Assembly: GCA_036399055.1 (NCBI GenBank)
Contig: DASWNX010000017.1
Location: 124,001 to 188,000 of the forward strand
DNA length: 64,000 nucleotides
Direction of reading: 5' to 3'
Origin: Jatrophihabitans sp.
Lineage (GTDB): Bacteria > Actinomycetota > Actinomycetes > Mycobacteriales > Jatrophihabitantaceae
The notes beneath the pieces are model-generated. The model worked only from the letters and a program-made list of their open reading frames with translations. It was not told the DNA's origin and made no database searches. Below, in pieces: positions 1-20,588 of the stretch. Numbering within the stretch: position 1 is the stretch's first letter; each line of letters starts with the position of its first letter. The position numbers and the translations under genes were made by a program.

Positions 1-612
1 AAGCTCGCGCCAGGGCCGGTCGACGTCATAGCCCAGGGTGGCGAGGATGTCGCGGTAGTTCTTGCCCTGCCACGCCCCCGGCCAGGCAGCGACGGCCTTG
101 TCCCGGATGGACAGACCGTCATCGGGCACCAGCGAGGCCTCGGTGACCTCGTGCACCCGTCCCAGGCCGTGGCAGTGCGGGCAGGCGCCGGCCGGGGTGT
201 TGGAGGAGAAGGCGTCGGAGTCAAGGCGCCCCGCGCCCGGCGGATACTGCCCGGCCCGGGAGAAGAGCATCCGCAACGAGTTGGACAGCGTGGTGACGGT
301 GCCGACCGTGGACCGCGACTGCGGTGTGCCGCGGGCCTGCTGCAGCGCGACCGCCGGCGGCAACCCGGTGATCTCGCCGACGTCGGGAACGGCGAGCTGG
401 TCGATCAGCCTGCGCGCGTACGGGGCGACCGATTCCAGGTAGCGGGCCTGGGCCTCGGCGTAGACCGTGCCGAATGCCAGCGACGACTTGCCCGAGCCTG
501 ACACTCCGGTCACCACGACCAACGCCTCGCGCGGCATGTCGACGTCGACGTCGCGCAGGTTGTGCACCCGCGCGCCACGCACGCGAATCATCGCGCTGTC
601 AGGCAGGGGCAT
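1..612 (-). CDS. UvrA-like ABC ATPase, N-terminal part (truncated by window edge)
   Basis: Reading leftward from the ATG at 610-612 gives 204 codons with no stop before the window edge. The protein has the UvrA Walker A loop GVSGSGKSSLAFGT at about residues 35-48, then the UvrA-type segments YAEAQARYLES and GLPPAVALQQ, and a zinc-binding CPHCHGLG motif. UvrA recognises DNA lesions with UvrB. UvrA-like paralogues beside antibiotic clusters (DrrC type) act as self-resistance proteins. The gene starts 26 bp after the ThiF-like gene in the same direction, so it is probably the last gene of the leftward operon. Only a full-length sequence would separate the paralogue from housekeeping UvrA. The family call is firm; the resistance role is inferred from location. 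Confidence 0.85.
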   Translation of the reverse strand, partial: MPLPDSAMIRVRGARVHNLRDVDVDMPREALVVVTGVSGSGKSSLAFGTVYAEAQARYLESVAPYARRLIDQLAVPDVGEITGLPPAVALQQARGTPQSRSTVGTVTTLSNSLRMLFSRAGQYPPGAGRLDSDAFSSNTPAGACPHCHGLGRVHEVTEASLVPDDGLSIRDKAVAAWPGAWQGKNYRDILATLGYDVDRPWREL

Positions 613-638
613 CTGCCGATCTTCCCAGGTGGTGAGCC

Positions 639-1436
639 TCAGGCTCGGACGAGGCTGTGCACGTCCACCGAGACCGACTCGCGCACCGGCACTCCGCTCA
701 AGATCTCGACGACGTAGCGGGCGGTCAGCACGCCGAACAGCATCGACGTGTACACCAACTGCGGCACGCTGTAATCGGGGTTGCCGCTGTTGGCCCGGAC
801 GTCGGCACGCAGGTCCTCGGGCACCACGTCGGCCGGGATGATGCGCCTCAACAGGTCCCACACCGTCTCCGCGCCCAGGTCCTGCGCGGTCACGATGCCG
901 TCCAGCGGCTTGAGCCCGAGGCGGTAGTCATAGAACCGGATGTACTGGGTGCCGGACATGTCATAACCGGAGATCACCGGCCGGCCCTGCGCCGCCGCCG
1001 CCTCATGGAGGGCGATCTTGGCCTGCCACCCTCCGGACGTGGTCACGTCCACGCCGTCGACGACCACGTCGCATTCGGCGACGAGACGCTCGACATTGTC
1101 GGGCTGCACGCCGGCAGTCTCGACGTGTGCCTGCGCGTGCGGGTTGATCCGGCCAATGCGCTCGGCCGCGACCACCGCCTTGTTCCTGCCGATGTCGGCG
1201 TAGTCGGCATCCTGGCGGTTGAGGTTGTTCAACTCATACTCACCCGGCTCGGCGAGCAGGAACTGCTGGACCCCCAACCGCACCAGCGGTTCGACCGCCG
1301 CGCCACCGGTCGAACCGCACCCTGCGATCAGGACGGTGGCCTGCCTCAAGGCCTGCTGCGCCTGCTCGGAGATCAGGCCTCGATTGCGCTCGGTGAACGA
1401 CTGGTAGAACGTGTCCGTCTCGGTGGTGACCGTCAT
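639..1436 (-). CDS. ThiF/MoeB-like E1-type adenylyltransferase
   Basis: This 265-residue protein has the Rossmann nucleotide loop AGCGSTGG (residues 38-45), the arginine-finger segment NNLNRQ (70-75), DIGRNKA (81-87) and a DVVVDGVDV strand. All match the ThiF/MoeB/E1 fold, which adenylates a carboxylate with ATP. The zinc CxxC pairs and the downstream catalytic cysteine of MoeB and ThiF are missing; the only cysteines I see are in the nucleotide loop and the VAECD strand. It therefore probably adenylates without forming an E1 thioester. It overlaps the preceding gene by 4 bp (ATGA), which indicates coupling. The substrate could be a peptide C-terminus, a carrier-linked acid or a small acid, and cannot be read from sequence. 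Confidence 0.8.
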   Translation of the reverse strand: MTVTTETDTFYQSFTERNRGLISEQAQQALRQATVLIAGCGSTGGAAVEPLVRLGVQQFLLAEPGEYELNNLNRQDADYADIGRNKAVVAAERIGRINPHAQAHVETAGVQPDNVERLVAECDVVVDGVDVTTSGGWQAKIALHEAAAAQGRPVISGYDMSGTQYIRFYDYRLGLKPLDGIVTAQDLGAETVWDLLRRIIPADVVPEDLRADVRANSGNPDYSVPQLVYTSMLFGVLTARYVVEILSGVPVRESVSVDVHSLVRA

Positions 1437-2350
1437 AGGGTGATCCTTGTCAGTTGGCCGTCGACGTGTCTCATCAGCATTTGGAACGCGGCCACCGGGC
1501 CGACGTCGGTGACCGCGGCCGAGAACCGGGCGACCATGTCCTCCAGCTCGGCAGGGTCGGGCACCTGCGCCACGAACGGCTTGACGACCTGCCGCTGGGT
1601 GTAGAGCGGGAACATGAGCTCGTCAGCCGGCAGGGACGGGGCGGTGCCCTCGAAGACGGTGGTCTGCCTCATGATCCTCTGGATGCGCCGGATGGCGATG
1701 CCTTCTTCTCCGTCACCGACCAGCGCCCGGATCCGCGGGAGGTTTCCAGACAACGCCGTGTACAGGCCCAGGACCGCCTCAAGCGTGATGCGCACCCGCT
1801 GCCGGCCATCGTGCTCCGCGGTCGTGCTCGGCTGCACCAGGCGCTTGATCTCCCAGACATTGCTGCTGTCGATGTCGTCGGGATGGTCGAAGTGGTCGAA
1901 CAGATTGACCCGGTGGGCCACTTCGCAGGGAAACAGCGAGCGCTGCGAACCTGCCATCGGCATCGGCCGAGGGTCCTCGGAGCCCAGCAGCGACAGGTAG
2001 CGCACGATCACGCCGCTGTGCTCATCGAGGACCAGCAGGTGGATCTCCTCCCTGCCGGAGTCGCTGGGCTCGGTGAGCAGCGCGCGAGCGAAGGCCAGCT
2101 CAGAGCTGGCGAAACGCAGCCGGAGGTACTGGGCCAGCCGGAACGCGTGGATGGCGAGCAGGAACCGCTCGGGGATGCCGCTGCCCCGGGCAGCCAGGAC
2201 CAGCAGGCCTTCGGGCCGCCGGGTGAGATACAGCAGGCTGTCAGAGCTGATCGCGCTCTCGATGCCCCTGACGTAGACGTTGTCATGCAAGCTGATCAGC
2301 TCGCTGACATAGCGGCTTCGCTGGTGCGTCGGTGTGAGCGTCTGGTTCAT
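1433..2350 (-). CDS. Putative LuxI/GNAT-like N-acyltransferase
   Basis: This 305-residue protein has no signal peptide or membrane segment. The middle part (about residues 108-200) resembles autoinducer-synthase-type GNAT enzymes: a strand around HLLVLDEHSGVIVRYLSLL, then a segment with SQRSLFP, then VWEIKRLV (165-172), and then a helix with ITLEAVLGLYTAL. In LuxI relatives the E-x-(S/K)-R element lies in the acyl-transfer site, which takes acyl groups from acyl-ACP. That donor would suit a locus with three carrier proteins. The start is 26 bp beyond the acyl-CoA dehydrogenase stop, and the 3' end overlaps the ThiF-like gene. The assignment rests on motif resemblance only; other GNAT functions are possible. 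Confidence 0.5.
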   Translation of the reverse strand: MNQTLTPTHQRSRYVSELISLHDNVYVRGIESAISSDSLLYLTRRPEGLLVLAARGSGIPERFLLAIHAFRLAQYLRLRFASSELAFARALLTEPSDSGREEIHLLVLDEHSGVIVRYLSLLGSEDPRPMPMAGSQRSLFPCEVAHRVNLFDHFDHPDDIDSSNVWEIKRLVQPSTTAEHDGRQRVRITLEAVLGLYTALSGNLPRIRALVGDGEEGIAIRRIQRIMRQTTVFEGTAPSLPADELMFPLYTQRQVVKPFVAQVPDPAELEDMVARFSAAVTDVGPVAAFQMLMRHVDGQLTRITL

Positions 2351-2376
2351 GATGCGGTCAACGGACAGACGCGCCG

Positions 2377-3630
2377 TTAGACGCGGTGGCCGTAGAGCGC
2401 GCCGGTGATCGCGATGGCCAGCACCTCGGGTGTGCCCTCGTAGATTCGCGCGCCGAAGGACTCCCGCACGAACTTCTCGACGCCGTACTCACGGCAGTAG
2501 CCACGCGCGCCCATCAGCGACATGGCCTCTTCGGTGACCTCGATGGCGATGCGGTCGGCGAAGAGCTTGGCCACCGCGGGCCCGTACGTCGGCGAGGGCA
2601 GCATGTTGTTCGCCTGGTAGGCGGCCTGCAGGTAGAGCAGCCGGGAGGCGTCGATCTTGGCTGACATCTCGGCGATCTTGCGGGCGCTGAACTGGTGCTG
2701 GTACAGCGGGCGGCCACCCTGGATACGCTCGCCGCACCACTGCTTGGCGATGTCGAAGGCGCCGCGGGCGACGCCGGTGGAGATGGCAGCCACCGTGGCC
2801 CGGGCCTGATTCGACTGCGCGGTGAGGAAGTTCCAGCCCTTGCCCTCACCGAAGACGACATTGGTGGCCGGCACCCGCACGTTCTCGAACACGAGGGTGG
2901 TGCCAAGGCACGCGCGGTAACCCATCTTGTCCGCGACGGCTTCTCGGGTCACTCCCTCGAGGTCGAGGTCGACGATGAAGGCGGTAAGGCCATCGGCCAC
3001 CGGCTGACCCTCGATATTGGCGAAGACGTTGCACCAGCGCGCCACGTGCCCGTTGGTGATGAAGCGCTTTATCCCGTTGATGACGTAGTGATCGCCATCG
3101 CGGCGCGCTGTCGTCACGTCAGTGGCGAATTCGGCGTTGTCGGGAATCAGCAGGTCGCAGCCCGCGACGTCTTCGGTGATCGCGTTGCAGGACAGCAGCG
3201 CCTGATCGCCCAGGAAGGGTGGCAGGTAGCGCGCCTGCAGCGCGGGGTCACCGGACAGCAGCACGGCGGTCTGCCCCAGCAGCGAGGCCCCGAAGATCAG
3301 AGCCGTGCTGGCGCACACGCTCGCCAGCTCCTCCATCGCCACCGCGACGCCGAGCACCCCGACGCCGCGCCCGCCGATCTCCTTGGGCATGGTCAGGCGC
3401 AACAGGCCCAGTTCGTGGCCGGCCTGCACGACCTCCCAGTCGAACTCGTCGGCGGGGGCGAGGTCGTTGGCCAGCACCCGCGGCTTGACCACCTTCTGAG
3501 CGAAGTCGCGGACCTCCTCCCGCAGGGCCTGCACGTCAGGGGGAAGCGTGAACATCGACGGCATCGAAGCCTCGCTGAGCACGGCATAGTCTGAGAGAGT
3601 CGGGGGGTTGGAGATCATCGTGCTGGTCAC
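2377..3630 (-). CDS. Acyl-CoA dehydrogenase family flavoprotein
   Basis: A full-length, 417-residue, soluble acyl-CoA dehydrogenase. It shows the N-terminal helical domain, the middle FAD-contact region around CNAITEDVAGCD, the segment INGIKRFITNGHVA, and a C-terminal helical domain with YEGTPEVLAIAI, whose glutamate is the expected catalytic base. The family introduces alpha,beta double bonds into acyl-CoA or, in biosynthetic clusters, acyl- or aminoacyl-carrier proteins. GTG at 3628-3630 is chosen because GAAGG lies 8 nt upstream; an internal ATG at 3618 is the alternative. It lies in the leftward operon after the SCP2-like gene. A carrier-protein-bound substrate is likely but unproven. Confidence 0.9.
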   Translation of the reverse strand: MTSTMISNPPTLSDYAVLSEASMPSMFTLPPDVQALREEVRDFAQKVVKPRVLANDLAPADEFDWEVVQAGHELGLLRLTMPKEIGGRGVGVLGVAVAMEELASVCASTALIFGASLLGQTAVLLSGDPALQARYLPPFLGDQALLSCNAITEDVAGCDLLIPDNAEFATDVTTARRDGDHYVINGIKRFITNGHVARWCNVFANIEGQPVADGLTAFIVDLDLEGVTREAVADKMGYRACLGTTLVFENVRVPATNVVFGEGKGWNFLTAQSNQARATVAAISTGVARGAFDIAKQWCGERIQGGRPLYQHQFSARKIAEMSAKIDASRLLYLQAAYQANNMLPSPTYGPAVAKLFADRIAIEVTEEAMSLMGARGYCREYGVEKFVRESFGARIYEGTPEVLAIAITGALYGHRV

Positions 3631-3715
3631 GGAACGGCCCTTCGAGAGTGTGGACAGGTACCCGGTTGGATCGGCGGCGCTAGCTCGGGTGGGTGCGGTT
3701 GCCGCGGCCAGCTGG

Positions 3716-4099
3716 CTAGCGGCCGTTCGACGGCGCGAGGCGGGCGTAGTGCTCGCCGATGGAGGGCAGCAGCTCGGCGAACTGCCTGATCCGTGACACC
3801 GGGCCCTTCACCCGCAACCGTCGATCCATCGCCGCTGCCGTGATCGTGGTGCGGCCGGACCACAGCGCGTCGGCGGTGTCGGTGTCGAGCTCGAATCGCA
3901 GCGTGGGCGGGTAGGGTGGTTTTCCCAGCTTCGCGCCCTGGGCGTCGACGAAGAGCTCAACCGTCGGGTCGTGCTGCACGAAGTGCAGCGACAGCTCGCG
4001 TTCGCTGAGCTTGGCAGCCGACTCCTGATCTTCCAACACCGCCGAGAACACATCGCGTAGCAGGGCGCCGGCTTGCTCGCCCGAGTCGTACACAGCCAT
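3716..4099 (-). CDS. SCP2 sterol-binding-domain-like protein
   Basis: A 127-residue single-domain protein. The alternating strands and the segments TLRFELDTDTADALWSGR and RRLRVKGPVSRIRQF resemble the SCP2 fold, which binds hydrophobic ligands in a tunnel. No catalytic motif is visible. It is 3 bp downstream of the GMC oxidoreductase stop side in the same operon and upstream of the acyl-CoA dehydrogenase. It may hold or shuttle a lipid-like intermediate between cluster enzymes. The fold assignment is moderate and the role is inferred. Confidence 0.65.
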   Translation of the reverse strand: MAVYDSGEQAGALLRDVFSAVLEDQESAAKLSERELSLHFVQHDPTVELFVDAQGAKLGKPPYPPTLRFELDTDTADALWSGRTTITAAAMDRRLRVKGPVSRIRQFAELLPSIGEHYARLAPSNGR

Positions 4100-4102
4100 T
4101 GT

Positions 4103-5734
4103 TCAACCTCTCATCACAGGTGCGGTTGCCGACAACGCCTCTTCTGAATGCGCTGCCGTCGATATCAGCTCCGCGGCGCGCTCGGCGAGCATCACCGTCG
4201 GCGCCTGGGTGTGCCCCCTTGGAATCCTCGGCATCACGCTGGCGTCCACCACCCGCAGACCGCTGACGCCGCGCACTCGGAACTCCAGGTCCACCACCGC
4301 ATCGGCGTCGGCGCCCATCCGGCACGTTCCGACCGGGTGAAACAGGGTCTGGGCGTGCGCGCGGGTGAACGAGGAGATCGACTCGCTCGACTGCTCGAGC
4401 GCGCCGGGCAGGAAGGGTCGCGACACCCACGGCGCCAGGGCGGGCTGGCCGAGCACGTTCTGTGCCAGCCGGACGCCGGCGGTCAGGGTCTGGACATCCT
4501 CGCCCGCGGCGTCAGTGAGATAGCCGGCGTCGATGACAGGGTGCGCTGACGGGTCGGCCGAGGCAAGGCTGATCGTGCCGCGGCTGGCGGGCTGCAGCAG
4601 GACGACGCCGATGGTCAGGCCGTGCTCGGCCGGCCCTGAGGCCTCGGCCAGATCGGCCACGACCATCCAGAGCAGTTCGATGTCCGGCCCTTCCAGGCCG
4701 GCCTCTGTGTGCAGGAAGGCCAGTGCCTCGGCGAGGTTGGAGCTCAACGGGCCCCGACGGCCCCGGAGGTAGGCGGCCGTGTTGGCAGCCTGCTCACCCA
4801 CTCCCGGCGAGACCGGCGCCTTGGCCGCCATGGACAGCGGCACGTACAGGTGGTCGGCGAGGTTGGCCCCCACCTCGCGGTGTGCGGCCTGCACGGCTAT
4901 GCCATGCCGGTTCAACGCCTCGGGCGAGCCGATCCCGGACAGCATGAGCAGTTGGGGACTGCAGATCGCGCCTGCGGCCAGGATGACCTCACGACTGGCC
5001 GACACCACCTCCAGGCCGGTCGCGGTCTGGACCTCGACGCCGGTCGCCCGCCCAGCCTCGACGACGACACGGCGAACCTGCGCGCCGGTCATCACCGTCA
5101 GGTTCTCCCGCTGCAGGGCCGGACGGAGGTAGGCGTCCGCGGCGCTCCAACGGCGACCGTGGTTCTGGGTGACGCGCACCGGGCCATGACCGGTCGGCTC
5201 GCTCACCTCCGACCTTCCCAGCGCCGGATGCCCCGCCTGGGCACAGGCCTGCAGGAACGCGGCGGTGGCCGGGTTCAGCTCGCGCAGGTCCTCGACGCGG
5301 ACCGGCCCCGAGGCGCCGAAGTCGCCGGGGCCGTTCTCGCAGATGCGATTCTCCGCTTTGAGGAAGAAGGGCAGCACGTCGGCGAAGCTCCAGCCGGCGC
5401 ACCCGGCGGCCGCCCAGCCGTCATAGTCGGCGCGGTGACCCCTCGTCCAGATCTGGGCGTTGATGGACGACGAGCCGCCCAGGGTGCGTCCTCGGGGCCA
5501 GCGGACGCTGCGACCGGCGAGACCGGCTTGGGCCGTGGTCGAGAAGTCCCAGTCCAGGGAGGTGCCGAAGGCCTTGGGATAGGCGGCCGGGATGCTGATC
5601 GCGGCGCTGCGGTCGGTCTGGCCCGCCTCGACGAGGATGACCCGGCTGCCGCCGTCGGCGCTGAGCCGATCGGCCAGGACGCACCCGGCCGACCCCGCGC
5701 CGATGACGACGTACTCGGCTTCCTCGACGGCCAT
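4103..5734 (-). CDS. GMC-family FAD oxidoreductase (choline dehydrogenase-like)
   Basis: A 543-residue protein with the FAD dinucleotide-binding loop VVIGAGSAGCVLADRL near the N-terminus, the GMC signature GRTLGGSSSINAQIWTRG, the AAGAICSPQLLMLSGIG segment, and C-terminal FHPVGTCRMG and GHTQAPTVMLAE elements that carry the active-site histidines. GMC enzymes oxidise alcohols to aldehydes or ketones with FAD. The ATG touches the stop of the SGNH gene (5735), so the two are tightly coupled. In this cluster it probably oxidises a hydroxyl group on the growing product, perhaps to a carbonyl that the class III aminotransferase could then aminate. Choline itself is an unlikely substrate given the context. 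Confidence 0.9.
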   Translation of the reverse strand: MAVEEAEYVVIGAGSAGCVLADRLSADGGSRVILVEAGQTDRSAAISIPAAYPKAFGTSLDWDFSTTAQAGLAGRSVRWPRGRTLGGSSSINAQIWTRGHRADYDGWAAAGCAGWSFADVLPFFLKAENRICENGPGDFGASGPVRVEDLRELNPATAAFLQACAQAGHPALGRSEVSEPTGHGPVRVTQNHGRRWSAADAYLRPALQRENLTVMTGAQVRRVVVEAGRATGVEVQTATGLEVVSASREVILAAGAICSPQLLMLSGIGSPEALNRHGIAVQAAHREVGANLADHLYVPLSMAAKAPVSPGVGEQAANTAAYLRGRRGPLSSNLAEALAFLHTEAGLEGPDIELLWMVVADLAEASGPAEHGLTIGVVLLQPASRGTISLASADPSAHPVIDAGYLTDAAGEDVQTLTAGVRLAQNVLGQPALAPWVSRPFLPGALEQSSESISSFTRAHAQTLFHPVGTCRMGADADAVVDLEFRVRGVSGLRVVDASVMPRIPRGHTQAPTVMLAERAAELISTAAHSEEALSATAPVMRG

Positions 5735-6409
5735 CTAGGGCCTGGCGCCGGCGCTGGCGGCGAGAGCTCTGACAATCTCTGACGCCAGAACGGCTTGCCC
5801 CATCATCGAAAAGTGGATCCCGTCCGCGCTCATCAGGTCCGGCGCGTGCCTGATCGGGTGATCCCACATCTCGACAAGCGTGGCCTTGTGCTTGCCGGCC
5901 AGCGCTCTGATCCGGTCGTTGAGGTCTGCGATCCGCTCGCCGAACGGCGCCAGTTGCGGCGACTTGTCGAACACGTTGGTCACCGTGAACAGCAGCAGGT
6001 GCGCACCGCCCTCGGTGAGGCGCTGGCACGCGGCATCCAGGCTGTCCTGGACGACGGCCAGGTCCCCCGAGCGCGAGAAGGCGTCGTTGGAGCCAGCTAC
6101 GACCGTGACCAGGTCCGGTTGGAAGTCCAGCACCGGCTGCAGCTGGGTCCGCAGGATGTCAGCCGTCCGCAGGTTGGCTTGGCCGGTGTTGAGGTAGTCG
6201 ACCTCGGAGCGAGAGAACCGCAGCGCCTGGACGACCCGCTCGGCCCAGGGCACGTCGGCGTAGCCGGCCGAGGGCCCGCCGACACCGGCCGCCATGCTGT
6301 CGCCCATGACGGCCCAGCGTCGCCATGGCGCGCCGCTGAGCAGCTCGCCGGCCTCGCGGGCTGACAGGCAGTGCGGGGCGGCGACCTCGTGCTCCAGGCC
6401 AACCGTCAT
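5735..6409 (-). CDS. SGNH/GDSL-family hydrolase 1
   Basis: A 224-residue protein with all four SGNH blocks: GDSMA (nucleophile Ser38), the Gly/Asn block around YLNTGQ, GSND, and DGIH supplying Asp196 and His199. There is no signal peptide, so it is cytoplasmic. It is a paralogue of the hydrolase at 17169-17876, and the two share the N-terminal signature CL-x4-EA-x-ELL-x2-APW-x-R. It overlaps the carrier-protein gene by 4 bp (ATGA). It may release or transfer an acyl group from a carrier protein or hydrolyse an ester intermediate. The fold is firm; the substrate is unknown. Confidence 0.88.
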   Translation of the reverse strand: MTVGLEHEVAAPHCLSAREAGELLSGAPWRRWAVMGDSMAAGVGGPSAGYADVPWAERVVQALRFSRSEVDYLNTGQANLRTADILRTQLQPVLDFQPDLVTVVAGSNDAFSRSGDLAVVQDSLDAACQRLTEGGAHLLLFTVTNVFDKSPQLAPFGERIADLNDRIRALAGKHKATLVEMWDHPIRHAPDLMSADGIHFSMMGQAVLASEIVRALAASAGARP

Positions 6410-6732
6410 CGTGCGGGTGTTCCGGGCGTGGTCAACAACCCGTCAGAGCTGTCCCCGTTGGAGCCGGCAGGGTCGGCCGGACTGCTTCCGATGCCGCGCA
6501 CCACGAGGTCCTCGATGTCGGCGACCGTCACCACGTCAGCCCCGTCGTCCTGGGCGAGGCTGGTGAGGCCGAGGACGGATTCGATCTGAAGGGACAGCTC
6601 CACGATCGCCAGGGAGTCATAACCGAGGTCCTCCACCAGCCGGTCCGATGACGTCGCGACCCGCTTGCCTGCCGGAGACATGCTGCCAACGATCTCCAGC
6701 ACTCGTGCGCGCACTTCTTCTGTGGTCAACAT
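6406..6732 (-). CDS. Acyl/peptidyl carrier protein 1
   Basis: The 108-residue product begins MLTTEEV and carries EDLGYDSLAIVEL, with the serine of the DSL motif as the phosphopantetheine site, followed by a helix with LQIES and a VTVADIEDLV tail helix. I chose the ATG at 6732 rather than the longer reading back to 6864, because the extension runs through a tandem repeat and is low in complexity, and because this start aligns residue for residue with carrier protein 2. About 25 residues beyond the domain form an Asp/Gly/Ser-rich tail. The pantetheinyl transferase at 16419-17165 is the likely activating enzyme. It may carry the fatty acyl group or an oxidised intermediate. Confidence 0.88.
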   Translation of the reverse strand: MLTTEEVRARVLEIVGSMSPAGKRVATSSDRLVEDLGYDSLAIVELSLQIESVLGLTSLAQDDGADVVTVADIEDLVVRGIGSSPADPAGSNGDSSDGLLTTPGTPAR

Positions 6733-6754
6733 GTCATTCCTCTTCCTCAGTGCC

Positions 6755-6808
6755 GCGCAGGCCGGGTCAGTCGCGCAGGCCAGGTCAGTCGCGCAGGCCG
6801 GATCAGTT
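6755..6808. repeat. Three 18-bp tandem direct repeats
   Basis: Three consecutive copies of the unit gcgcaggccgggtcagtc lie at 6755-6772, 6773-6790 and 6791-6808, with one or two base changes per copy. They fill most of the gap between the diiron gene and carrier protein 1, and the last copy contains the diiron gene's stop codon. They appear to have arisen by duplication of the gene's 3' end. Confidence 0.9.
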
Positions 6809-13326: not shown

Positions 13327-13345
13327 TCCCGGCTCCGGAATCAGC

Positions 13346-14374
13346 ATGAATAGCCTGGTCAGAACTGCCACGCAGGGCGCGGCAGGGGCTGAGCAAGGCT
13401 GGCTGCTCGCCCTGAACGGCCTGTTCACCATCCCCTCGGACTTCAGGAACGAGGACGTCGACCGGTTCGCGGCGTTGGACATGCTGCGGTGCGGCGAGCC
13501 GACTCTGGACGCCTTGATCGCCGCAGGCCTGCCCTGCCGTGGCGAGGCGGGCGCTGAATGGTTCGACCGCTTCGACCTGTTCAATCTCGCCCTCGCCTCC
13601 AAGTCCGGAGTGTCAGTGCCTGAGAGGGCGATTCGCTACGCGTTGAGGTGGATGCATGGCGGCCCGCAGACGTGGACCGAGCCGATCAGGTGGAACTTCG
13701 ACATCGAGCTCCGCTGCCCGCTGAGCGAGTGCGGCGCCGATGCCGAATGGTCGCACTCACGCCTTGACTTCGACTCGGTGGAGGCTGACCTGCTCGACTG
13801 GCACACCGAACCCGAGACGGCCGTGGTCACCGATGACCAGATCCTCTTCTCCGGGCCCGGGCCGGTCGGCATGCGGGGTGAGATGGTGACGAGGGGCCGG
13901 CTGATGACCCTCCGATCGCCGGTGCTGCAGTCGATCACCGATGACTTCCTCGCAGCCGACTACCCGTGGATCCGGATGCCCGAGCGGTTGCAACACGACT
14001 ACAAGAGGGTGCTGGCCGCCGGCGCCGCCCCCTGCATCTCGGCCTCGCTGTTCCTGCAGAGCCAGTACCAGGCGGCCGGATACCAGTCGAGGACCAAGCG
14101 GGGCTGGTTGCTGGGCATGCTGGACCTGGCGCATTCGTGGGTCGAGGTTCTCGATGACGACGGCGTTGTCAAGGCCGTGGACCCGGTGTTCCTGCGGCTG
14201 GCCGACCACGCGGAGAACCCGCATCCCGAGCTGGCGGCAGGATGCATCGGGTCCCGGCTGAACCGGTTGCTGCCCACCTCGATCCCCGCTGACGGGACCA
14301 TGGTGTCCCATCGTTGTGGTGGCCGTGAGAGCACACCCGTCCGGCGCACCGTCATCCGCCGGGCCGGCGCCTGA
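13346..14374 (+). CDS. Transglutaminase-like-fold protein, possible acyltransferase
   Basis: A 342-residue soluble protein with no obvious N-terminal domain homology. The C-terminal half carries a candidate transglutaminase-type triad in the usual order: Cys230 in APCISASLF, His263 in LAHSWVEVLDDDG and Asp279 in KAVDPVF. The spacing and the AHxWVEV...VDP pattern are typical of the superfamily. Relatives cleave or form amides; BtrH in butirosin synthesis transfers an aminoacyl group from a carrier protein. Its neighbours are carrier protein 2 upstream and the AurF-like gene, whose ATG overlaps its 3' end. Amide formation from a carrier-bound acyl group is a reasonable guess. Confidence 0.6.
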   Translation: MNSLVRTATQGAAGAEQGWLLALNGLFTIPSDFRNEDVDRFAALDMLRCGEPTLDALIAAGLPCRGEAGAEWFDRFDLFNLALASKSGVSVPERAIRYALRWMHGGPQTWTEPIRWNFDIELRCPLSECGADAEWSHSRLDFDSVEADLLDWHTEPETAVVTDDQILFSGPGPVGMRGEMVTRGRLMTLRSPVLQSITDDFLAADYPWIRMPERLQHDYKRVLAAGAAPCISASLFLQSQYQAAGYQSRTKRGWLLGMLDLAHSWVEVLDDDGVVKAVDPVFLRLADHAENPHPELAAGCIGSRLNRLLPTSIPADGTMVSHRCGGRESTPVRRTVIRRAGA

Positions 14375-15300
14375 TGACCGGCACGGCGATCCCGGCCGGC
14401 CGCGGGCCGAACCTCTCCGAGACCCTCAGCGGCGACCCTCGTTTCAAGGCGATCCTGGACCGGCTCGTCACGATGTCCGAGCGCGACTACTACGACCCCT
14501 ACCGGTTGTTCACCTGGCCGGACAGCATCGTGCAGGACGCCTACTGGATGTCACCAGAGCTGATGAGCGTGCACGGCACGCAGGTCGGCAACCGCCTCGA
14601 CGAGACTCAGCTCAAGGCGCTCAGCAAGTGGGAAAGCATCAACTTCTACAGCCTGAACGTCCACGGCATCCGCGAGCTGCTGACGGCCATCGTCGCGCGC
14701 ATCTACATGCCCGGGTTCGCGCTTCCCTCGGAGTACTTCCACCACATCATCGGCGAAGAGAACGAGCACATGTGGTTCTTCGCCACCTTCTGCCTGCGCT
14801 ACGGGGGCAAGGTCTACCCCGACCGGTCCCTCACGTTCGCCGGACCTGGAATCGCTGAGGCCGAGACGTTCCTGATCTTCGCCCGGTTGCTGATCTTCGA
14901 AGAGCTGGTCGACGTCTTCAACCAGCGCATGGGCAGCGACGACCGGCTGCACCCGACGATCCAGCAGATCAATGCGGTTCACCATCAGGACGAGTCCCGC
15001 CACATCGCCTTCGGACGTCAGATCGTGGCGCTGCTGCACGCGGAACTGCGTCGTACGCTCAGCGTGGAGCAGCTGACCTCCCTCGAGCTCTACCTCAAGC
15101 GCTACATGCGGGTCTCGACCGAGTCGCTGTGCAATCCGGCCGCGTTCGCCGACGCCGGCATCCCCGACCCGTACCGGATGCGCCGTGAAACGCTGGCAGA
15201 TCCGCAGTTCGAGGTCTTCACCGCCCGCGTGCTCAAGCGTTCGACGACGTTTCTGACCAGTGAGCAGATCTTCTCGGACGAAAGGATCCCCGCGCTGTGA
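14374..15300 (+). CDS. AurF-like diiron N-oxygenase
   Basis: A 308-residue helical protein with the full ligand pattern of AurF/CmlI arylamine oxygenases: E101, E129-x-x-H132 in EENEH, a glutamate in IFEELVD (176/177), and H203-x3-E207-x2-H210 in HHQDESRH. The extra histidine (H203) distinguishes AurF relatives from ordinary R2 proteins. AurF and CmlI oxidise amines through hydroxylamine and nitroso to nitro; relatives also make azoxy compounds. It shares ATGA-type overlaps with both neighbours. The adjacent carrier protein and aminoacyl ligase suggest a carrier-bound amino substrate. N-oxidation is strongly suggested, but the final oxidation level is not. Confidence 0.82.
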   Translation: MTGTAIPAGRGPNLSETLSGDPRFKAILDRLVTMSERDYYDPYRLFTWPDSIVQDAYWMSPELMSVHGTQVGNRLDETQLKALSKWESINFYSLNVHGIRELLTAIVARIYMPGFALPSEYFHHIIGEENEHMWFFATFCLRYGGKVYPDRSLTFAGPGIAEAETFLIFARLLIFEELVDVFNQRMGSDDRLHPTIQQINAVHHQDESRHIAFGRQIVALLHAELRRTLSVEQLTSLELYLKRYMRVSTESLCNPAAFADAGIPDPYRMRRETLADPQFEVFTARVLKRSTTFLTSEQIFSDERIPAL

Positions 15301-15569
15301 CGCAGCTACCCACCGAGGCCACGCCGGACGGGGATCACGACCTGGTCCTGTCCTACCTTCTGGCCCGGCGCCCGGAGCTCACCTCGATCGACCCTGACCT
15401 CGACCTCATCGACAACCGGCTCATCGACTCACTCAGCTTCGTCAATTTCCTGTACGTGCTCGAAGAGCAGAGCGGCCGGCAGATCTCACTCGATGAAGTC
15501 TCACCTGAGGATTTCCGCACCCTGCGCCGCATCCGAGAAAGATTCTTCGGTGACCACTCCGCGAGCTGA
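15297..15569 (+). CDS. Carrier protein 3, probable aminoacyl carrier
   Basis: This 90-residue protein starts at GTG 15297, overlapping the previous stop by 4 bp. It has DLIDNRLIDSLSFVNFLYVLEE, where the serine of IDSLSF is the pantetheine site. Its sequence differs clearly from carrier proteins 1 and 2, with no EDLGYDS block and a C-terminal helix ending RRIRERFF. Carrier proteins served by aaRS-like ligases are usually encoded next to them, as here. It is therefore the probable acceptor of the amino acid activated by the next gene. Confidence 0.88.
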   Translation: MTQLPTEATPDGDHDLVLSYLLARRPELTSIDPDLDLIDNRLIDSLSFVNFLYVLEEQSGRQISLDEVSPEDFRTLRRIRERFFGDHSAS

Positions 15570-15609
15570 CACCTTCGCTGCCCGCTCCGCCACTTCGGGG
15601 CTGGCGGTG

Positions 15610-16422
15610 ATGGGTCCGCTGGAGCTGGCGTTGCGCGCGGAGCTGGATCGGATCTTCACCTCATGGGCGAGGGCGGTCGACGCGGCGCCGATGGCCTACC
15701 AGACACTTCTTCCGGTCGCGGACCTGGCGATGCTGGACTACTGGGACAACTTCCCGCACCTGGCGCTGGTCGCCACCGCGGTCCGTGAGGAGTCGTTCAG
15801 CCAGCTGACGGCTGCCAGCGCCGCCGGCTTCTCCGCCGGCTTGCTGGCCGAGGCGCAGTACGCGCTGCCATCGGCCGCCTGCTACGCGGCATACCTGGAC
15901 CTGCGGAACACCACCGTCCCAGCCAAGCACCTGGTCACGACGGTCGCGACCTGCTTCCGGCGGGAACAGCGGTTCGAGGGCTTGCGACGGCTGCTGTCCT
16001 TCAGCATGCGTGAGGTCATCTGCGTCGGCGAGCGCGAGGCGACGCTGGACCACCTCTCAGCCTTCAAAGCAAAGATCATGGCGTTCGCGAAGCGGTTGGA
16101 GCTGCCGCTGGAGATCGAGGTGGCCAGCGACCCGTTCTTCGACGCCAGCGCCTCGCGCTCGCTCGTCGCGCAGCTGTTTCCGGTAAAGGAAGAATTCGTC
16201 TTCCGCTCCGCCGAGCACCCCGAGGGCCTGGCGATCGCATCGGTCAACTTCCATCGCAACTTCTTCGGCGAACGCTGCCGGATTCTCACCGAGGACGGCG
16301 CGCCCGCGTTCAGCTCGTGCGTGGCGTTCGGCTTGGAGCGTTGGCTGTCAGCGGTGTGCGCGCAGTTCGGACCGCCGTCGGCCCGGCTCGTCGAGCGGGT
16401 CCGGGACGCGAGCGAGCTGTGA
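15610..16422 (+). CDS. Class II aaRS-like amino acid:[carrier protein] ligase
   Basis: The 270-residue product is a truncated class II synthetase core without a tRNA-binding domain. Motif 2 is TCFRREQRFEGLRRLLSFSMRE, read across residues 114-135, and motif 3 is SCVAFGLERWL. Cys91 (SAACYAAY), Glu135 (MREV) and Cys237 (SSCVAFG) match the zinc ligands of atypical seryl-tRNA-synthetase-like enzymes such as Bll0957, which load Gly or Ala onto carrier proteins. The adjacent carrier protein fits that role. The start is uncertain: ATG 15610 is used, but GTG 15550, inside the carrier gene, is possible. A small amino acid substrate is expected from the family. Confidence 0.82.
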   Translation: MGPLELALRAELDRIFTSWARAVDAAPMAYQTLLPVADLAMLDYWDNFPHLALVATAVREESFSQLTAASAAGFSAGLLAEAQYALPSAACYAAYLDLRNTTVPAKHLVTTVATCFRREQRFEGLRRLLSFSMREVICVGEREATLDHLSAFKAKIMAFAKRLELPLEIEVASDPFFDASASRSLVAQLFPVKEEFVFRSAEHPEGLAIASVNFHRNFFGERCRILTEDGAPAFSSCVAFGLERWLSAVCAQFGPPSARLVERVRDASEL

Positions 16423-17165
16423 GCTGCGCGCCGCCGACGCTGCTGAGGTCTCGCCACCTGCTGCTCGGACGTCCGGTCGAGACCTGGGTGGCCAGGATCG
16501 GGCCCGGTCAGGGTTCGGCGCATTCGGTGGTGGCGCTGCTGAGCGCCGAGGAACGCCGGCAGATGTCGAACATGGTGAGCCCGGTGATCCAACGCCAGTA
16601 CGCCGCAGGCCGGGCGCTGACCCGTCTCGCGCTGGGCGCCCGGCTGTCGATGCCGGCCAGGCGGGTGCCGGTGTCGGTCGATGACAACGGCAGGCCCTGC
16701 CTGCTCGCCCGGCACGGCGGCGCCGGCGGCGCCGCCCCGGTGGGGATCGACTTCAATCTCTCGCACTCGGGCGATCTCGTGGCGCTGGCCGTGGGCAGCG
16801 GGCTCAGGATCGGCCTGGACATCGAGCGGGAGGAGCGCCGGCCGAACGCGCCGGCGTTGGCGCGCCGCTTTTTCAGCCCGTCCGAATGTGAGTTGCTGGA
16901 CCGCTCCGACGAGCGCTGCTACACGCGGCGATGGCACCGGATCTGGACCACCCGGGAAGCCCATGCCAAGGCGCGGGGCATCGGGGTGCGCGCGATGGCC
17001 GCTGCCCATGGCGTCCGCGGTGACGGTTGGGACAGCCGCAACGTCCCGCTCGCCGCCGGCTACGTGGGGACGGTGGTGGCCCTGCGACCGACTTTGTCCC
17101 CGGAACGCGAGCACATCGAGATGAGCAGCGCCAGCGACCGGAAAACCACCGGGAACAGGAGATGA
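16419..17165 (+). CDS. Sfp-type 4'-phosphopantetheinyl transferase
   Basis: The 248-residue product starts at GTG 16419, overlapping the aaRS-like gene's stop (GTGA). It has the PPTase blocks VGIDFNLSHSGDLVALAV, GLDIE and FFSPSE, and the segment WTTREAHAKARG with the Mg2+/CoA-binding acidic and lysine residues. It transfers phosphopantetheine from CoA to carrier-protein serines. Three carrier proteins in the cluster are the obvious substrates. The start preceding this one in the same frame would run through the ligase gene and is rejected. Confidence 0.93.
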   Translation: MSCAPPTLLRSRHLLLGRPVETWVARIGPGQGSAHSVVALLSAEERRQMSNMVSPVIQRQYAAGRALTRLALGARLSMPARRVPVSVDDNGRPCLLARHGGAGGAAPVGIDFNLSHSGDLVALAVGSGLRIGLDIEREERRPNAPALARRFFSPSECELLDRSDERCYTRRWHRIWTTREAHAKARGIGVRAMAAAHGVRGDGWDSRNVPLAAGYVGTVVALRPTLSPEREHIEMSSASDRKTTGNRR

Positions 17166-17168
17166 CCT

Positions 17169-17876
17169 ATGGATGACCAGCTGTCAGACGTTCACGAGCA
17201 CCCGTCCACCACCGAAGAGACCGACCCCTACTGCCTTCCTCCGGATGAAGCCGCCGAGTTGCTCGCCGAGGCGCCCTGGAAGCGGTTCGGCGTGATGGGT
17301 GACAGCCTGGCCAAGGGGCTGGGCCAGGAGCTTCCCGGTTATCGGCCGCTGTCGTGGGCAGCCCGGGTGCGCGAGGCGTTGCTCACCGCCCATCCGGATC
17401 TGAGCTACCTCAACACCGGCCACCAGGGCCTGCTCGCTGCCGAGGTGCGCGATCAACAGCTTGGGCCGATGCTGGAGTTCCAGCCGGACCTGGTGGCGAT
17501 GACAGCAGGTGGCAATGACCTGTTCGGACTTCGCTTCGACGCCGGCGCCATCGAAGAGGCCCTCGATGACATCGTGGCCAAGCTGCGTGGCAGCGGCGCG
17601 GACGTCATCACCTACGGGTTGATGAACATCACCGCCGCGCTTCCGAAGTTGGCGCCGATCCGGCATCGCCTGGAGACGTTGAACGCGCTGTCGCTGGCGA
17701 TCGCTCAACGGCACGGCACCATCCACGTCGACATGTGGTCGCACCCCTCCTGCGGTGAGGTGAACGCTTACAGCACCGACATGAAGCACAGCACCATGCG
17801 CGGCCACGCGATACTCGGAGCTGAGACGATCCGCACGATGGGCGCCTGGCTGCGACAGTCAGGCCACAAGCGATGA
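17169..17876 (+). CDS. SGNH/GDSL-family hydrolase 2
   Basis: A 235-residue paralogue of the hydrolase at 5735-6409. The four SGNH blocks are intact: GDSLAKG (Ser46), YLNTGHQG, AGGNDLF and a TDMKH element giving the Asp/His pair. It keeps the shared N-terminal signature with a cysteine and the EA-x-ELL-x2-APW pattern. It has no signal peptide. The gene starts 3 bp after the pantetheinyl transferase stop. Two diverged copies, one per operon, suggest two related but separate deacylation or transfer steps. Confidence 0.88.
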   Translation: MDDQLSDVHEHPSTTEETDPYCLPPDEAAELLAEAPWKRFGVMGDSLAKGLGQELPGYRPLSWAARVREALLTAHPDLSYLNTGHQGLLAAEVRDQQLGPMLEFQPDLVAMTAGGNDLFGLRFDAGAIEEALDDIVAKLRGSGADVITYGLMNITAALPKLAPIRHRLETLNALSLAIAQRHGTIHVDMWSHPSCGEVNAYSTDMKHSTMRGHAILGAETIRTMGAWLRQSGHKR

Positions 17877-17954
17877 CAGCTTGCCCCGCCCAGCCCATCC
17901 CAGAGGCCCCCGCCTCTGCATCCCCCACATCGTTTCAGCCATCAGGAGGCAGCC

Positions 17955-18761
17955 ATGTCTGACGCATCCACCTGGGTGACGCCCGAGGTCGACACCGACC
18001 GTCCGAGCATCGCCCGACTCTATGACTACCTGCTCGGCGGCACCCACAACCTCGAGCCCGACCGCGAGTTGGGCAAACAGGCGATCAGGGCGGCTCCGGG
18101 TCTCATCATGCTCATTCGAGAGAGCCGCAAGTTCTTGCGGCGGTCCGTGCGCTACGCCCTCGATCAAGGTGTCGACCAGTTCCTGGATCTGGGATCAGGC
18201 ATCCCGACCCGGGGCAGCGTCCACGAGACGGTGGCCGCTATCAATCCGGATGCTCGGATCGTCTACGTCGACCGGGATCCGGTGGCGGTCGCGCACGGCA
18301 ATGAGCTGCTGGCGAGCAACCCGAACGCCGCCAGCGTGCAGGCCAATCTGCTCGACGCCGACGAGGTGCTGGCCACCGACACGGTCAAGTCCCTGCTCGA
18401 TTTCGACCGGCCGGTGGCCGTCCTGGTCCTGTGCGTGCTGCAATTCTTCTCCGACTCCGAGGTGTTGCCGGCCCTGGAGAAGTACCGCGAGCGCCTTGCT
18501 CCGGGCAGCCTTCTGATCATCTCCACGGCGACGAACGAAGGCGACGACGGATCTTCAGACATGGTGGGCAACCTGTACGCGAAGGAGTTCGGTGATTTCG
18601 CGCTGCGCTCCCATGAGCAGATGCGCGCCCTGTTCGGAGACTTCGAGATGGTCGAGCCGGGAGTGGTCTTTCCGACCCAGTGGCATCCGGACAAGCCGAG
18701 TGACGTCGGCGCCCATCCTGAGCGCTACACCTACCTGGTGGGCGCCGCGCGCAAACGCTGA
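17955..18761 (+). CDS. SAM-dependent methyltransferase, DUF574 family
   Basis: A 268-residue protein starting MSDASTW, with the DUF574 hallmark RPSIARLYDYLLGGTHN, which is typical of actinobacterial family members, and a Rossmann-like SAM region around FLDLGSGIPTRGS and VYVDRDPVAVAHG. It has an AGGAGG ribosome-binding site 7 nt before the ATG. It ends the rightward operon, 50 bp before a strong hairpin. Members are common near biosynthetic genes but few have a defined substrate. It could O- or N-methylate the product, or be unrelated to the cluster. Confidence 0.9.
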   Translation: MSDASTWVTPEVDTDRPSIARLYDYLLGGTHNLEPDRELGKQAIRAAPGLIMLIRESRKFLRRSVRYALDQGVDQFLDLGSGIPTRGSVHETVAAINPDARIVYVDRDPVAVAHGNELLASNPNAASVQANLLDADEVLATDTVKSLLDFDRPVAVLVLCVLQFFSDSEVLPALEKYRERLAPGSLLIISTATNEGDDGSSDMVGNLYAKEFGDFALRSHEQMRALFGDFEMVEPGVVFPTQWHPDKPSDVGAHPERYTYLVGAARKR

Positions 18762-18810
18762 GCAGGCCGGCCGGCCGGCCGCAGCCGGCCATGCCACCTC
18801 GAACGACAGC

Positions 18811-18844
18811 GACGACCCTGCCTCCGCTGGGAGGCAGGGTCGTC
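18811..18844. terminator. Strong bidirectional hairpin between convergent genes
   Basis: Arms gacgaccctgcctcc (18811-18825) and ggaggcagggtcgtc (18830-18844) pair perfectly over 15 bp around a 4-nt loop. The next outer pair also matches. It lies between the methyltransferase (+) and the fatty acyl-AMP ligase (-), a position that suits both transcripts. There is no T-run on either side, as is usual for actinomycete terminators. Confidence 0.85.
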
Positions 18845-18860
18845 GTCGGCTCAGCGGCCC

Positions 18861-20588
18861 TCAGCCTGTCGGAGCAGTGGCGTCAGCGATCCCGAAGCTG
18901 ACCGGCGCCTGGCCGTGGACCGCTTCCCACGGCGTAGCGGCGCCGGTGAGGAGCTCGGTCCACATCGTCCTGCGGCGGGGCTTTCCGCTGGAGGTGCGGG
19001 CGATCGATCCGCGTTTTCCTCGCAGGATCAAGGGTGAGGCGGATCCGGCGGTGATCGTGCGAACCCGTTCGCTGGCGGCTGTCAACCAGTCCTGGCCCAC
19101 CTGCTCCTCTACGAACACCACCGCCAGGTTCTCGGAGTCGACGGCGCCGAAGGCCACCGCGCACCTGACGTTCGGCAAGCCATCGAGGTTTCCCAGCTCG
19201 GACTCCACGTCCTCAGCGTGCACGCTGGCGCCCCGGACCTTCATCGACTCCCCGATGCGGCCGACCACGAACAGCTCATCACCCAGTAAGAAGCCCGCGT
19301 CGCCGGAGCGAAGGCCCTCGTGGCCGAAGGGCGTCACACCGTCGCCTGTCAGATAGCCCTGCGCAAGAGAGGAACCGGTCAGGAAGACCTCGCCGAAGGC
19401 GCCGTCGGGAAGCGGGTTGCCGTCCTCGTCGATGATGCTGACGTCAAGGCCTTCCACCGCGGCGCCGCACCCGGTCAACCAGCCGGCGCCGCCCGCCGAG
19501 TCGAGGCCGAGCATGCCGGTTTCGGCCACGACCACCGCTTCGCCGACCGCGAGCGCGGTGCTCTTGGTCCGCACCAGCCGGGAGCCGCCACCGGGCGGCG
19601 CGCCGGTGGCGGCCAGTGTCACCTCCGCCAGGCCGTAGGCGCCGATCAGCGCGCCCGGGTTGAAGCCATGCGAGCTGACCAACTGGTAGAACGCGCTGAT
19701 CGCCGCGGGCTCGATCCGCTCGGCGCCGAGGATCGCCACCCGCCACCGGGAGAAGTCGAAATCGGCGATCTGCTCAGGGCTCACCCGGCGGGCGGTGTAG
19801 GCATAACCGAAGCTCGGCGCCGTTGTCAGCGTCGCGCCGTGTTTGCCGAAGCATTCCAACCAGCGCAGCGGTGCGCGCACGAACTGGTCGGGAGTCATCA
19901 GCCACAGGTCAGTGCCGGAGACGACGGGGACGACCATGCCTCCGATCAGTCCCATGTCGTGGTAGAGCGGAAGCCAACTCGCGAACACGTCTTCGGCTGA
20001 CCACTTCAACCAGCTTCGGATCGCCTGCACGTTGGCGCTGAGGTTGGCGCAGGAGATACGCACACCCTTGGGCGCGCCGGTCGAGCCGGAGGTGAACTGG
20101 AGCAGGGCCAGGTCGGTGTCCACCAGCTCAGCCCGCGCGCCGAGCGCCGAGTCGGCGTCTGCCTCATCGGCGACAGCAAGATCCAACTCCAGCACCGTCG
20201 CCTGGCAGTCAGCTCGGACGACGCCGGATCGGGCCAGATCAACCAGCCTGGCATCAGTGACGACGAGGGCCGGGCGGGCGACGCTGAATATCGTGGCCAG
20301 GTGAGCGATATAACGCTCGGACTGCCGGAACGCCAACGGTGTGGCCAACGGCGACGGGACCATTCCGGCCGCAAGGCTTCCCATGAATGAGGCGATATAA
20401 GTCCAGGGATCGTGAACCACGAGCGAGATCACGTCACCACGGGCGCCGCCTGCCTGACGCAACTTCGCCGAGATTCGACGCACGTCCACGGCCAGCTCGG
20501 CATAGCTGCGGAAGAACCACGATCCGTCCGGCTTCAACAGGCGTATGCCACAGGTGGGGCTGGGATTGTCGAGCCAGTCCAACAGCAT
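18861..20588 (-). CDS. Fatty acyl-AMP ligase
   Basis: A 575-residue adenylate-forming enzyme. FTSGSTGAPKGV is the P-loop, YGLAEVTLA the adenine-contact motif and RSGDAGFL the ribose-binding aspartate region; a C-terminal subdomain lysine region follows around GSIARTSSGKPRR. The order RWRVAILGAERIEP...YGLAEVTLA and the SWLPLYHDMGLIGG element are characteristic of fatty acyl-AMP ligases, which pass acyl-AMP to carrier proteins rather than to CoA. No carrier domain is fused. It is transcribed alone and leftward from its own promoter and probably loads a fatty acid onto carrier protein 1 or 2. Confidence 0.9.
   Translation of the reverse strand: MLLDWLDNPSPTCGIRLLKPDGSWFFRSYAELAVDVRRISAKLRQAGGARGDVISLVVHDPWTYIASFMGSLAAGMVPSPLATPLAFRQSERYIAHLATIFSVARPALVVTDARLVDLARSGVVRADCQATVLELDLAVADEADADSALGARAELVDTDLALLQFTSGSTGAPKGVRISCANLSANVQAIRSWLKWSAEDVFASWLPLYHDMGLIGGMVVPVVSGTDLWLMTPDQFVRAPLRWLECFGKHGATLTTAPSFGYAYTARRVSPEQIADFDFSRWRVAILGAERIEPAAISAFYQLVSSHGFNPGALIGAYGLAEVTLAATGAPPGGGSRLVRTKSTALAVGEAVVVAETGMLGLDSAGGAGWLTGCGAAVEGLDVSIIDEDGNPLPDGAFGEVFLTGSSLAQGYLTGDGVTPFGHEGLRSGDAGFLLGDELFVVGRIGESMKVRGASVHAEDVESELGNLDGLPNVRCAVAFGAVDSENLAVVFVEEQVGQDWLTAASERVRTITAGSASPLILRGKRGSIARTSSGKPRRRTMWTELLTGAATPWEAVHGQAPVSFGIADATAPTG

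Follow-up and report, generated by a model that had tools for sequence, protein, structure and literature searches.

The window analysed here is a 64,000-nucleotide stretch of Jatrophihabitans sp. DNA (contig C17, positions 124001–188000) from a genome of 4.53 Mb in 46 contigs. Open reading frame (ORF) calling, codon-position GC and Pfam searches placed 20 tightly spaced genes at window positions 639–20588. We read these genes, at roughly even odds (about 0.5), as an inserted cluster free of nonribosomal peptide synthetases (NRPS) and polyketide synthases (PKS) that would fuse two modules around one shared fatty-acid core and yield a lipid–amino acid product. The features are listed below with their supporting matches.

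629..20824, no strand: inserted island between the uvrA-like and dnaN flanks (alignment to same-genus genome G002)
639..1436, minus strand: ThiF/E1-like adenylating enzyme, LitM counterpart (265 aa; Pfam ThiF 2.4e-29)
1433..2350, minus strand: LitL-like acyltransferase of predicted GNAT fold, nearest N-acyl-homoserine lactone (AHL) synthases/FeeM (305 aa)
2377..3630, minus strand: acyl-CoA dehydrogenase (ACAD) family enzyme, LitJ counterpart (Pfam 4.3e-36; 77% to lit-type loci)
3716..4099, minus strand: SCP2-like small protein, LitI counterpart (127 aa; Pfam SCP2 4.2e-4, 21.1 against a cut-off of 21.3 bits)
4103..5734, minus strand: GMC oxidoreductase, LitH counterpart (Pfam 1.5e-52; 61–62% to lit-type loci)
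5735..6409, minus strand: GDSL hydrolase 1 (GDSL1), LitG counterpart (Pfam 8.1e-24; 53–54% to lit-type loci)
6406..6732, minus strand: acyl carrier protein 1 (ACP1), LitF counterpart, phosphopantetheine Ser in GYDSL (Pfam PP-binding 0.0021, below cut-off)
6803..7810, minus strand: R2lox-like dimetal protein, LitE counterpart (Pfam R2-type 6.9e-10)
7911..9761, minus strand: O-carbamoyltransferase family enzyme, start uncertain (GTG 9761; Pfam C-terminus 7.3e-69)
10157..11602, plus strand: putative MFS exporter (Pfam 2.5e-43)
11648..12895, minus strand: class III aminotransferase (Pfam 1.2e-81)
13069..13326, plus strand: ACP3, GYDSV carrier (Pfam PP-binding 6.6e-5, above cut-off)
13346..14374, plus strand: transglutaminase-like enzyme (TGL), C230/H263/D279 (structure model and triad)
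14374..15300, plus strand: predicted AurF-family diiron N-oxygenase (Pfam AurF 3.8e-30)
15297..15569, plus strand: ACP2, stand-alone carrier (IDSL), presumed aminoacyl holder (Pfam PP-binding 0.03, below cut-off)
15550..16422, plus strand: amino acid:[carrier protein] ligase resembling aminoacyl-tRNA synthetases (aaRS-like), start GTG 15550 (3mey/Bll0957 7.4e-24)
16419..17165, plus strand: 4'-phosphopantetheinyl transferase (PPTase; Pfam ACPS 7.4e-12)
17169..17876, plus strand: GDSL hydrolase 2 (GDSL2; Pfam 6.5e-19)
17955..18761, plus strand: S-adenosyl methyltransferase (PF04672, 5.1e-77)
18861..20588, minus strand: probable fatty acyl-AMP ligase (FAAL), single copy common to both halves (Pfam AMP-binding 4.8e-53)

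Intergenic spacing within 639–20588 was at most 100 bp, with two exceptions (455 bp ahead of the MFS gene and 173 bp ahead of ACP3), and ACP1 starts at ATG 6732, preceded by GGAAGAGG. Pfam scans of the 20 cluster proteins gave zero matches to ketosynthase (KS), acyltransferase (AT) or condensation domains or to multi-domain NRPS, and two proteins, the LitL-like protein and TGL, had no significant Pfam match. All three free carriers hold a DSL or DSV motif, ACP3 alone passing the Pfam cut-off. The first-pass annotation, made from the letters alone, had described about 20 clustered genes with three free carriers and no PKS or NRPS, which these searches bear out; Pfam matches likewise back the FAAL, PPTase, GMC and acyl-CoA dehydrogenases, class III aminotransferase, carbamoyltransferase and exporter that it named. 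Its gene list was incomplete, with the ThiF enzyme, both GDSL hydrolases, the SCP2-like protein and the methyltransferase unlisted.

The block 629–20824 is an inserted island. The cluster-free genome G002, of the same genus, aligns to window positions 2–628 (89%) and from 20825 onward (93%); these flanks lie only about 1.6 kb apart in G002 without the cluster, enclosing a single 471-aa permease-like ORF, and therefore delimit the block as an island. AurF and LitL gave zero matches in eight same-genus genomes (G001–G008), and the cluster was probably acquired horizontally.

The left half matches a described system, the lipothrenin (lit) cluster of Streptomyces aureus LU18118 (ON169987), whose order, according to PMC10616846, is FAAL, R2-like protein, ACP, GDSL, GMC, LitI, ACAD, LitK, LitL, ThiF and LitN. 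Among LitL-bearing genomes, G814 and G713 showed this arrangement (lit-type loci L128/L130), and we took them for the lit cluster by gene order and lengths. Nine window genes are lit counterparts: FAAL (48% identity to the lit-type loci), the R2-like protein (66%), ACP1 (56–58%), GDSL1, GMC, the SCP2-like protein (37–39%), ACAD, LitL (48%) and ThiF (64–65%); the MFS protein is 47–48% identical to theirs. The window has no LitN-type N-oxygenase next to the LitM counterpart; the uvrA flank adjoins ThiF instead. LitL turned up in 14 of the 392 genomes searched in the genus of G520 and, by profile search, in 4 of 199 other relatives. A single-sequence search, less sensitive than a profile, found it in none of 393 other class genomes, and it was absent from all 29 searched genomes that carry group A or B loci (defined below).

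The SCP2-ACAD-LitL-ThiF cassette also occurs outside lit-type clusters. Ten of 13 further LitL places in the genus of G520 were compared, and nine held all four genes (L132–L136, L138–L141), L137 lacking SCP2; the SCP2-like protein of the window is 27–32% identical to its counterparts in 9 other cassette loci. The cassette is further present in L147, L149 and L151, with ThiF ahead of SCP2 in the latter two, and in L152 without SCP2; an MFS gene is often near such cassettes.

The right half belongs with a different set of loci. A scan for AurF returned 181 relatives, and the following counts rest on the best 80 of these 181. In 79 of the 80 loci an aaRS-like gene lies no more than 4 kb from AurF, and ACP2 does so in 77 (L042 has neither; L057 and L068 are without ACP2), and neither gene was found near distant AurF homologues (26–30%; 0 of 15 loci, with a span of only about 1.5 kb on each side). 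These 80 loci comprise group B, with 71 loci at 48–57% AurF identity, and group A, with nine loci at 60–69%. An LCM-type methyltransferase accompanies 67 of 71 group B loci (not L042, L068, L089 or L091), none of the nine group A loci and not the window cluster; TGL, at E 1e-6, is found in 9/9 group A loci versus 0/71 group B loci. Judged by these sequence comparisons, group A is a second cluster type, occurring in other actinobacteria.

We then compared ten group A loci, obtained by adding the loci with G handles and dropping two duplicates. R2lox-like protein, ACP3 and GDSL2 (38–56% identity) each occur in 8 of 10 and FAAL (at least 45%) in 7 of 10, the aminotransferase is 53–69% identical to its counterparts, and the lit-specific SCP2, ACAD, LitL and ThiF occur in none. 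ACP3 corresponds to the carrier that precedes TGL in group A clusters and reaches 72% identity to L025, and the MFS protein 61–63% to L032/L026; the PF04672 methyltransferase accompanies four loci (L026, L027, L034, L037). Among five more strong TGL loci, L200 carries the group A set minus GMC in a different order, and the other four hold, of the window genes, only TGL, AurF, ACP2, aaRS and PPTase, one with a 25% AMP-ligase match. At greater distance, the TGL loci L202 and L204 share AurF, ACP2 and aaRS, which a third such locus, L203, is without.

Some features vary across both groups. Group A clusters carry differing extra oxidoreductases, namely a flavin halogenase-like protein, a P450 and a molybdopterin enzyme (L026:890–2299, L034:4010–5245, L028:6005–8314). 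Genes of the S-adenosylmethionine (SAM) cycle lie near the methyltransferase in some group B loci (e.g., L044, L063, L074), and the family clustering counted 22 loci with a SAM synthetase family, 13 with MetH, 12 with PfkB kinase and 9 with AdoHcy hydrolase.

Taken together, sequence, synteny and structure models resolve the locus into three gene sets. The core common to both types comprises FAAL, the R2lox-like protein, the ACPs, the GDSLs, GMC and MFS. To it are joined the lit-specific genes known from the lipothrenin cluster (SCP2-like, ACAD, LitL, ThiF/LitM) and those of group A (TGL, AurF, ACP2, the aaRS-like ligase, PPTase and the class III aminotransferase), with the O-carbamoyltransferase as an extra over both. 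In tree comparisons, the FAAL grouped with that of the group A genome G011 (support 100/99), as did ACP3 (93/95); the R2lox-like proteins of the window, lit and G011 formed one clade (100/99), likewise GMC (100/99), and ACP1 was most similar to lit (49% identity), though weakly supported. Genomes sampled from the genus of G520 carried LitL in 14 of 392 and TGL in 34 of 384 (5 with E <1e-140), the sole overlap being G707, where the two sit on separate contigs. Among the genomes sampled from the class, 1 of 394 had LitL (single-sequence search) and 13 of 388 had TGL, the sole genome with both being G000, which carries the window. No second genome with both a strong LitL and a strong TGL was present in the sampled genomes.

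These comparisons bear on what the first-pass annotation had said of the locus as a whole. Its statement that no described cluster has this composition fails for half of it, as nine genes have lit counterparts and the AurF/ACP/ligase trio recurs in an akazaoxime-like locus. A match to a characterised locus, which it had named as refuting its view, was found for the lit half; as to the other refuting outcome, a lack of conservation, each half is conserved elsewhere and the fusion was seen only here. Of the co-occurrence that it proposed to check, the pairing of aaRS with AurF is borne out, and ACP2 goes with them; in the genomes sampled, a strong LitL together with a strong TGL was seen only here. 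Among open-licence PMC papers we found none on the fused set or on the group A cluster type. Both halves thus resemble known or partly known systems, and it is the combination and the group A type for which no published description was found.

The individual enzymes were assigned from folds, motifs and family matches. The structure model of LitL has a GNAT fold nearest AHL synthases (LuxI) and FeeM, supporting a GNAT acyltransferase of this kind, and Pfam and PDB gave no sequence match. TGL reached Transglut_core in Pfam at 0.18, a model matched in 6 of 10 family members; the structure model supports the fold and C230/H263/D279 is invariant in 10 rows, which supports a transglutaminase-like enzyme with amide synthesis as its predicted reaction. 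The aaRS-like ligase matched the class II core weakly (3e-4, below cut-off) and is homologous to the solved ligase Bll0957 (3mey) across 255 residues (7.4e-24). Its C112, E156 and C258, present in 80/80 rows and aligned to Cys, Glu and Cys of 3mey, are presumably metal ligands. In ACP2, D44-S45-L46 is found in 77/77 rows; in AurF, for which a PDB sequence search found nothing at E 0.1, E101, E129, H132, E176, H203, E207 and H210 are found in at least 97% of 67 rows.

For the R2lox-like protein, the best of five NCBIfam models was R2-like ligand-binding oxidase (1e-25; 90.6 bits, below the cut-off of 194), and the solved structures 7qbk (2.6e-18) and 4hr0 (8.7e-12) matched. The R2lox signature, two His and four Glu ligands with the equivalents of V72, Y162 and A171, is present in 10/10 rows (window, one lit-type, eight group A); in R2lox these are the cross-link Val and Tyr and the tunnel Ala (PMC6399176). 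The ThiF enzyme has TcdA as its nearest solved structures, with N-L-N-R-Q..K invariant in 13 rows. NCBIfam placed a fatty acyl-AMP ligase model first for FAAL (6.2e-89) and an acyl-CoA ligase second, all below cut-off, and putrescine aminotransferase first for the aminotransferase (5.6e-94, below cut-off). The carbamoyltransferase matched solved 7xb6 (1.5e-235), then GdmN and TobZ; loci L025–L153 held a single match (L091, 36%) and loci L193–L205 none. The aminoacyl ligase of the first-pass annotation is supported by its homology to Bll0957. One of its two diiron oxygenases is AurF, and the other proved to be an R2-type protein with the signature of R2lox, a family without assigned function; its LuxI-like acyltransferase and transglutaminase-like protein owe their standing to the structure models, the former lacking and the latter having weak sequence matches.

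From gene content, synteny, motifs and folds we infer all of the following chemistry. FAAL would put a long-chain acid onto ACP1/ACP3, after which the R2lox-like enzyme and GMC may oxidise the distal end of the acyl chain and the aminotransferase may convert the aldehyde to an amine. LitL, as a LuxI/FeeM-type enzyme, would N-acylate a free amino acid, which in lit is threonine, and the ThiF enzyme would activate the carboxylate of the N-acyl amino acid; TcdA, its nearest solved relative, makes an oxazolone, and by this analogy an azlactone intermediate would explain the LitM epimerisation reported in lit. The aaRS-like ligase would attach a small amino acid (probably glycine) to ACP2, and AurF would oxidise the nitrogen of this amino acid on the carrier. 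TGL could then form an amide between the carrier-bound halves, with the carbamoyltransferase capping a hydroxyl and the MFS protein acting as exporter. The most likely product is a long-chain acyl amino acid that is carbamoylated and carries a glycyl unit N-oxygenated to the N-hydroxy, oxime or nitro form; plausibly it is a metal-binding lipid. The gene set fits the earlier suggestion that fatty acid and amino acid sit on carriers of their own and that N-oxidation and carbamoylation take place.

A more specific version has the lipid functionalised at both ends: a LuxI-type N-acyl amino acid would be inverted via a TcdA-like azlactone, the terminal amine would be capped by TGL with a carrier-made N-oxygenated glycine, and the R2lox-like protein would be the terminal oxidase of the carrier-linked fatty acyl chain. 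We regard this full scheme as rather unlikely; if true, a reaction would for the first time be assigned to the R2lox family.

Some of the gene deletions published for lit (PMC10616846) favour the scheme. Deletion of litL abolished all lipothrenins and deletion of litM left only the L-threonine form, in support of LitL being essential and of LitM being required to epimerise; deletion of litD or litG lowered the titre. Several other observations weigh against the fused pathway or its steps. In the same paper, deletions of litE (R2lox-like), litH (GMC), litJ and litP had minor effects only, which weakens the distal-oxidation step and argues against essential R2lox-like and GMC roles, at least in the lit host. 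GMC is present in only 4/10 group A loci and the aminotransferase in 7/10. Six loci (L028, L035, L193, L195, L196/197, L198) carry TGL-AurF-ACP2-aaRS without the R2lox-like protein and without a close FAAL, and TGL therefore need not use a FAAL-loaded acyl group. The aaRS-like protein scored below the cut-off of NCBIfam NF005479 (6.9e-35; 120.5 against 357 bits), so glycine specificity stays a prediction, and plain Foldseek of the LitL model in PDB gave weak, mixed GNAT matches (best SidF, E 7.8e-4). PMC10616846 describes LitN as the N-oxygenase of lit, shown by deletion; the window AurF is only 28% identical to the lit-type oxygenase (L129) over 141 residues, and what holds for lit therefore cannot be carried over to AurF. 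For group A clusters, neither a product nor expression data were found; the product class is deduced from genes.

The duplicated ACP and GDSL genes, one per set, could also mean two side-by-side pathways: on the left a lit-type, lipothrenin-like N-acyl-threonine route and on the right a group A route, sharing only FAAL and exporter. Each gene set is found alone elsewhere, as this would predict, but FAAL, the R2lox-like protein, GMC and MFS are single-copy, and GMC sits in the left operon, at a distance from the aminotransferase, which neighbours GMC in L036, L039 and L040 but here is flanked by the exporter and the right operon; we consider independent pathways possible, though doubtful. The absence of LitN after ThiF, together with LitN being an AurF homologue as well, invites the idea that AurF replaces LitN and N-hydroxylates the LitL-made amide, with ACP2/aaRS giving a minor aminoacyl extension and a lipothrenin variant as product. 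The 28% identity of the window AurF to the lit-type oxygenase, set against 48–74% to aaRS/ACP2-associated AurFs, makes this an unlikely reading. Finally, lipothrenin A is an iron binder (PMC10616846), and the locus might be an ordinary siderophore- or lipopeptide-type cluster known by another name, but neither the fused nor the group A set appeared in the open-licence papers found, and the fused set was in no other genome examined; we judge this very improbable. The fused cluster with one shared fatty-acid core stays our preferred account.

Genes on both flanks were also considered. On the left, the UvrA-like gene, which extends beyond the edge of the window (1 to about 612), had been counted as a cluster gene; we rejected it as cluster member or resistance gene because it borders the empty site in G002 and is a conserved flank. 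Close copies (75–89%) occur in G008, G004 and G024, all, like G002, without a LitL or AurF match, and in G011, whose group A cluster sits on a different contig. On the right, dnaN (20907–22058) was rejected as a self-resistance copy, being the sole dnaN found in the genome; an equal-scoring 383-aa dnaN in cluster-free G002, with its 93% flank match, also argues against such a role. The four genes scanned on this side are not dnaA, and the dnaN open frame in same-genus genomes is 383 aa or about 404 aa. Upstream of the window, L003:7614–13571 encodes a protein of 1985 aa that combines nucleoside phosphorylase, NB-ARC/STAND and TPR domains and resembles defence proteins in domain content only.

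The locus points to a family of compact clusters, free of NRPS, in which three modules recombine: a fatty-acid core, a cassette for N-acyl amino acids (SCP2-ACAD-LitL-ThiF) and one for N-oxygenation (AurF-ACP-aaRS ligase). Several questions thereby gain answers that can be tested: LitL may be the amide-forming lit enzyme, vaguely hypothesised in PMC10616846; LitM may epimerise threonine via an azlactone, by analogy with TcdA, where that paper proposes a dehydratase route; the aaRS-like ligase may load glycine in akazaoxime-type clusters; and the R2lox-like protein may indicate what R2lox, whose physiological function PMC6399176 termed unidentified in 2019, can do.

Among known systems, lit is colinear with the window from the R2-like gene to ThiF (eight genes, window minus strand). 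The window differs in that FAAL is displaced to the far end of the cluster, that LitK, LitN/LitO, the FabH-like LitB and the SARP regulators have no counterpart among its 20 cluster genes, and that it adds TGL-AurF-ACP2-aaRS-PPTase, the aminotransferase, the carbamoyltransferase, a second ACP and a second GDSL. LitL resembles AHL synthases and the N-acyl amino acid synthase FeeM in modelled fold, whereas it is longer and without a sequence match to them. The window ligase is of the Bll0957 type yet falls below the NCBIfam cut-off and sits in a biosynthetic cluster, and the R2lox-like protein shares the dimetal ligands and V/Y/A signature of R2lox but is clustered with FAAL and carriers and stays below the NCBIfam cut-offs.

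For the right half, the closest comparison is the enteromycin class (akazaoxime/A-76356, PMC9967187), to which enteromycin carboxamide also belongs (He and Ryan 2021, as cited in that paper). Locus L104 (Micromonospora qiuiae, 2263–13234) encodes an adenylation–peptidyl carrier protein (A-PCP), KS-AT-ketoreductase (KR)-ACP, a beta-lactamase-like protein, AurF, aaRS, ACP2 and an LCM-type methyltransferase; its first domains match those given for akazaoxime/A-76356 in PMC9967187, and it may make the same product. That paper proposes glycine loading by the A-PCP protein; in L104 an aaRS-like ligase and a stand-alone carrier stand beside AurF, and glycine may be loaded by the ligase rather than by A-PCP. 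Pfam matches in the window gave no hint of the cupin/MetRS-like, lysine N-hydroxylase or VlmA proteins of diazo/hydrazone (triacsin, azaserine, dob) and azoxy (valanimycin) routes, for which no search by name was made. As in L104, an AurF-type oxygenase, a stand-alone carrier and an aaRS-like ligase adjoin in the window, whereas the window is without the LCM-type O-methyltransferase and without PKS/NRPS and has TGL instead.

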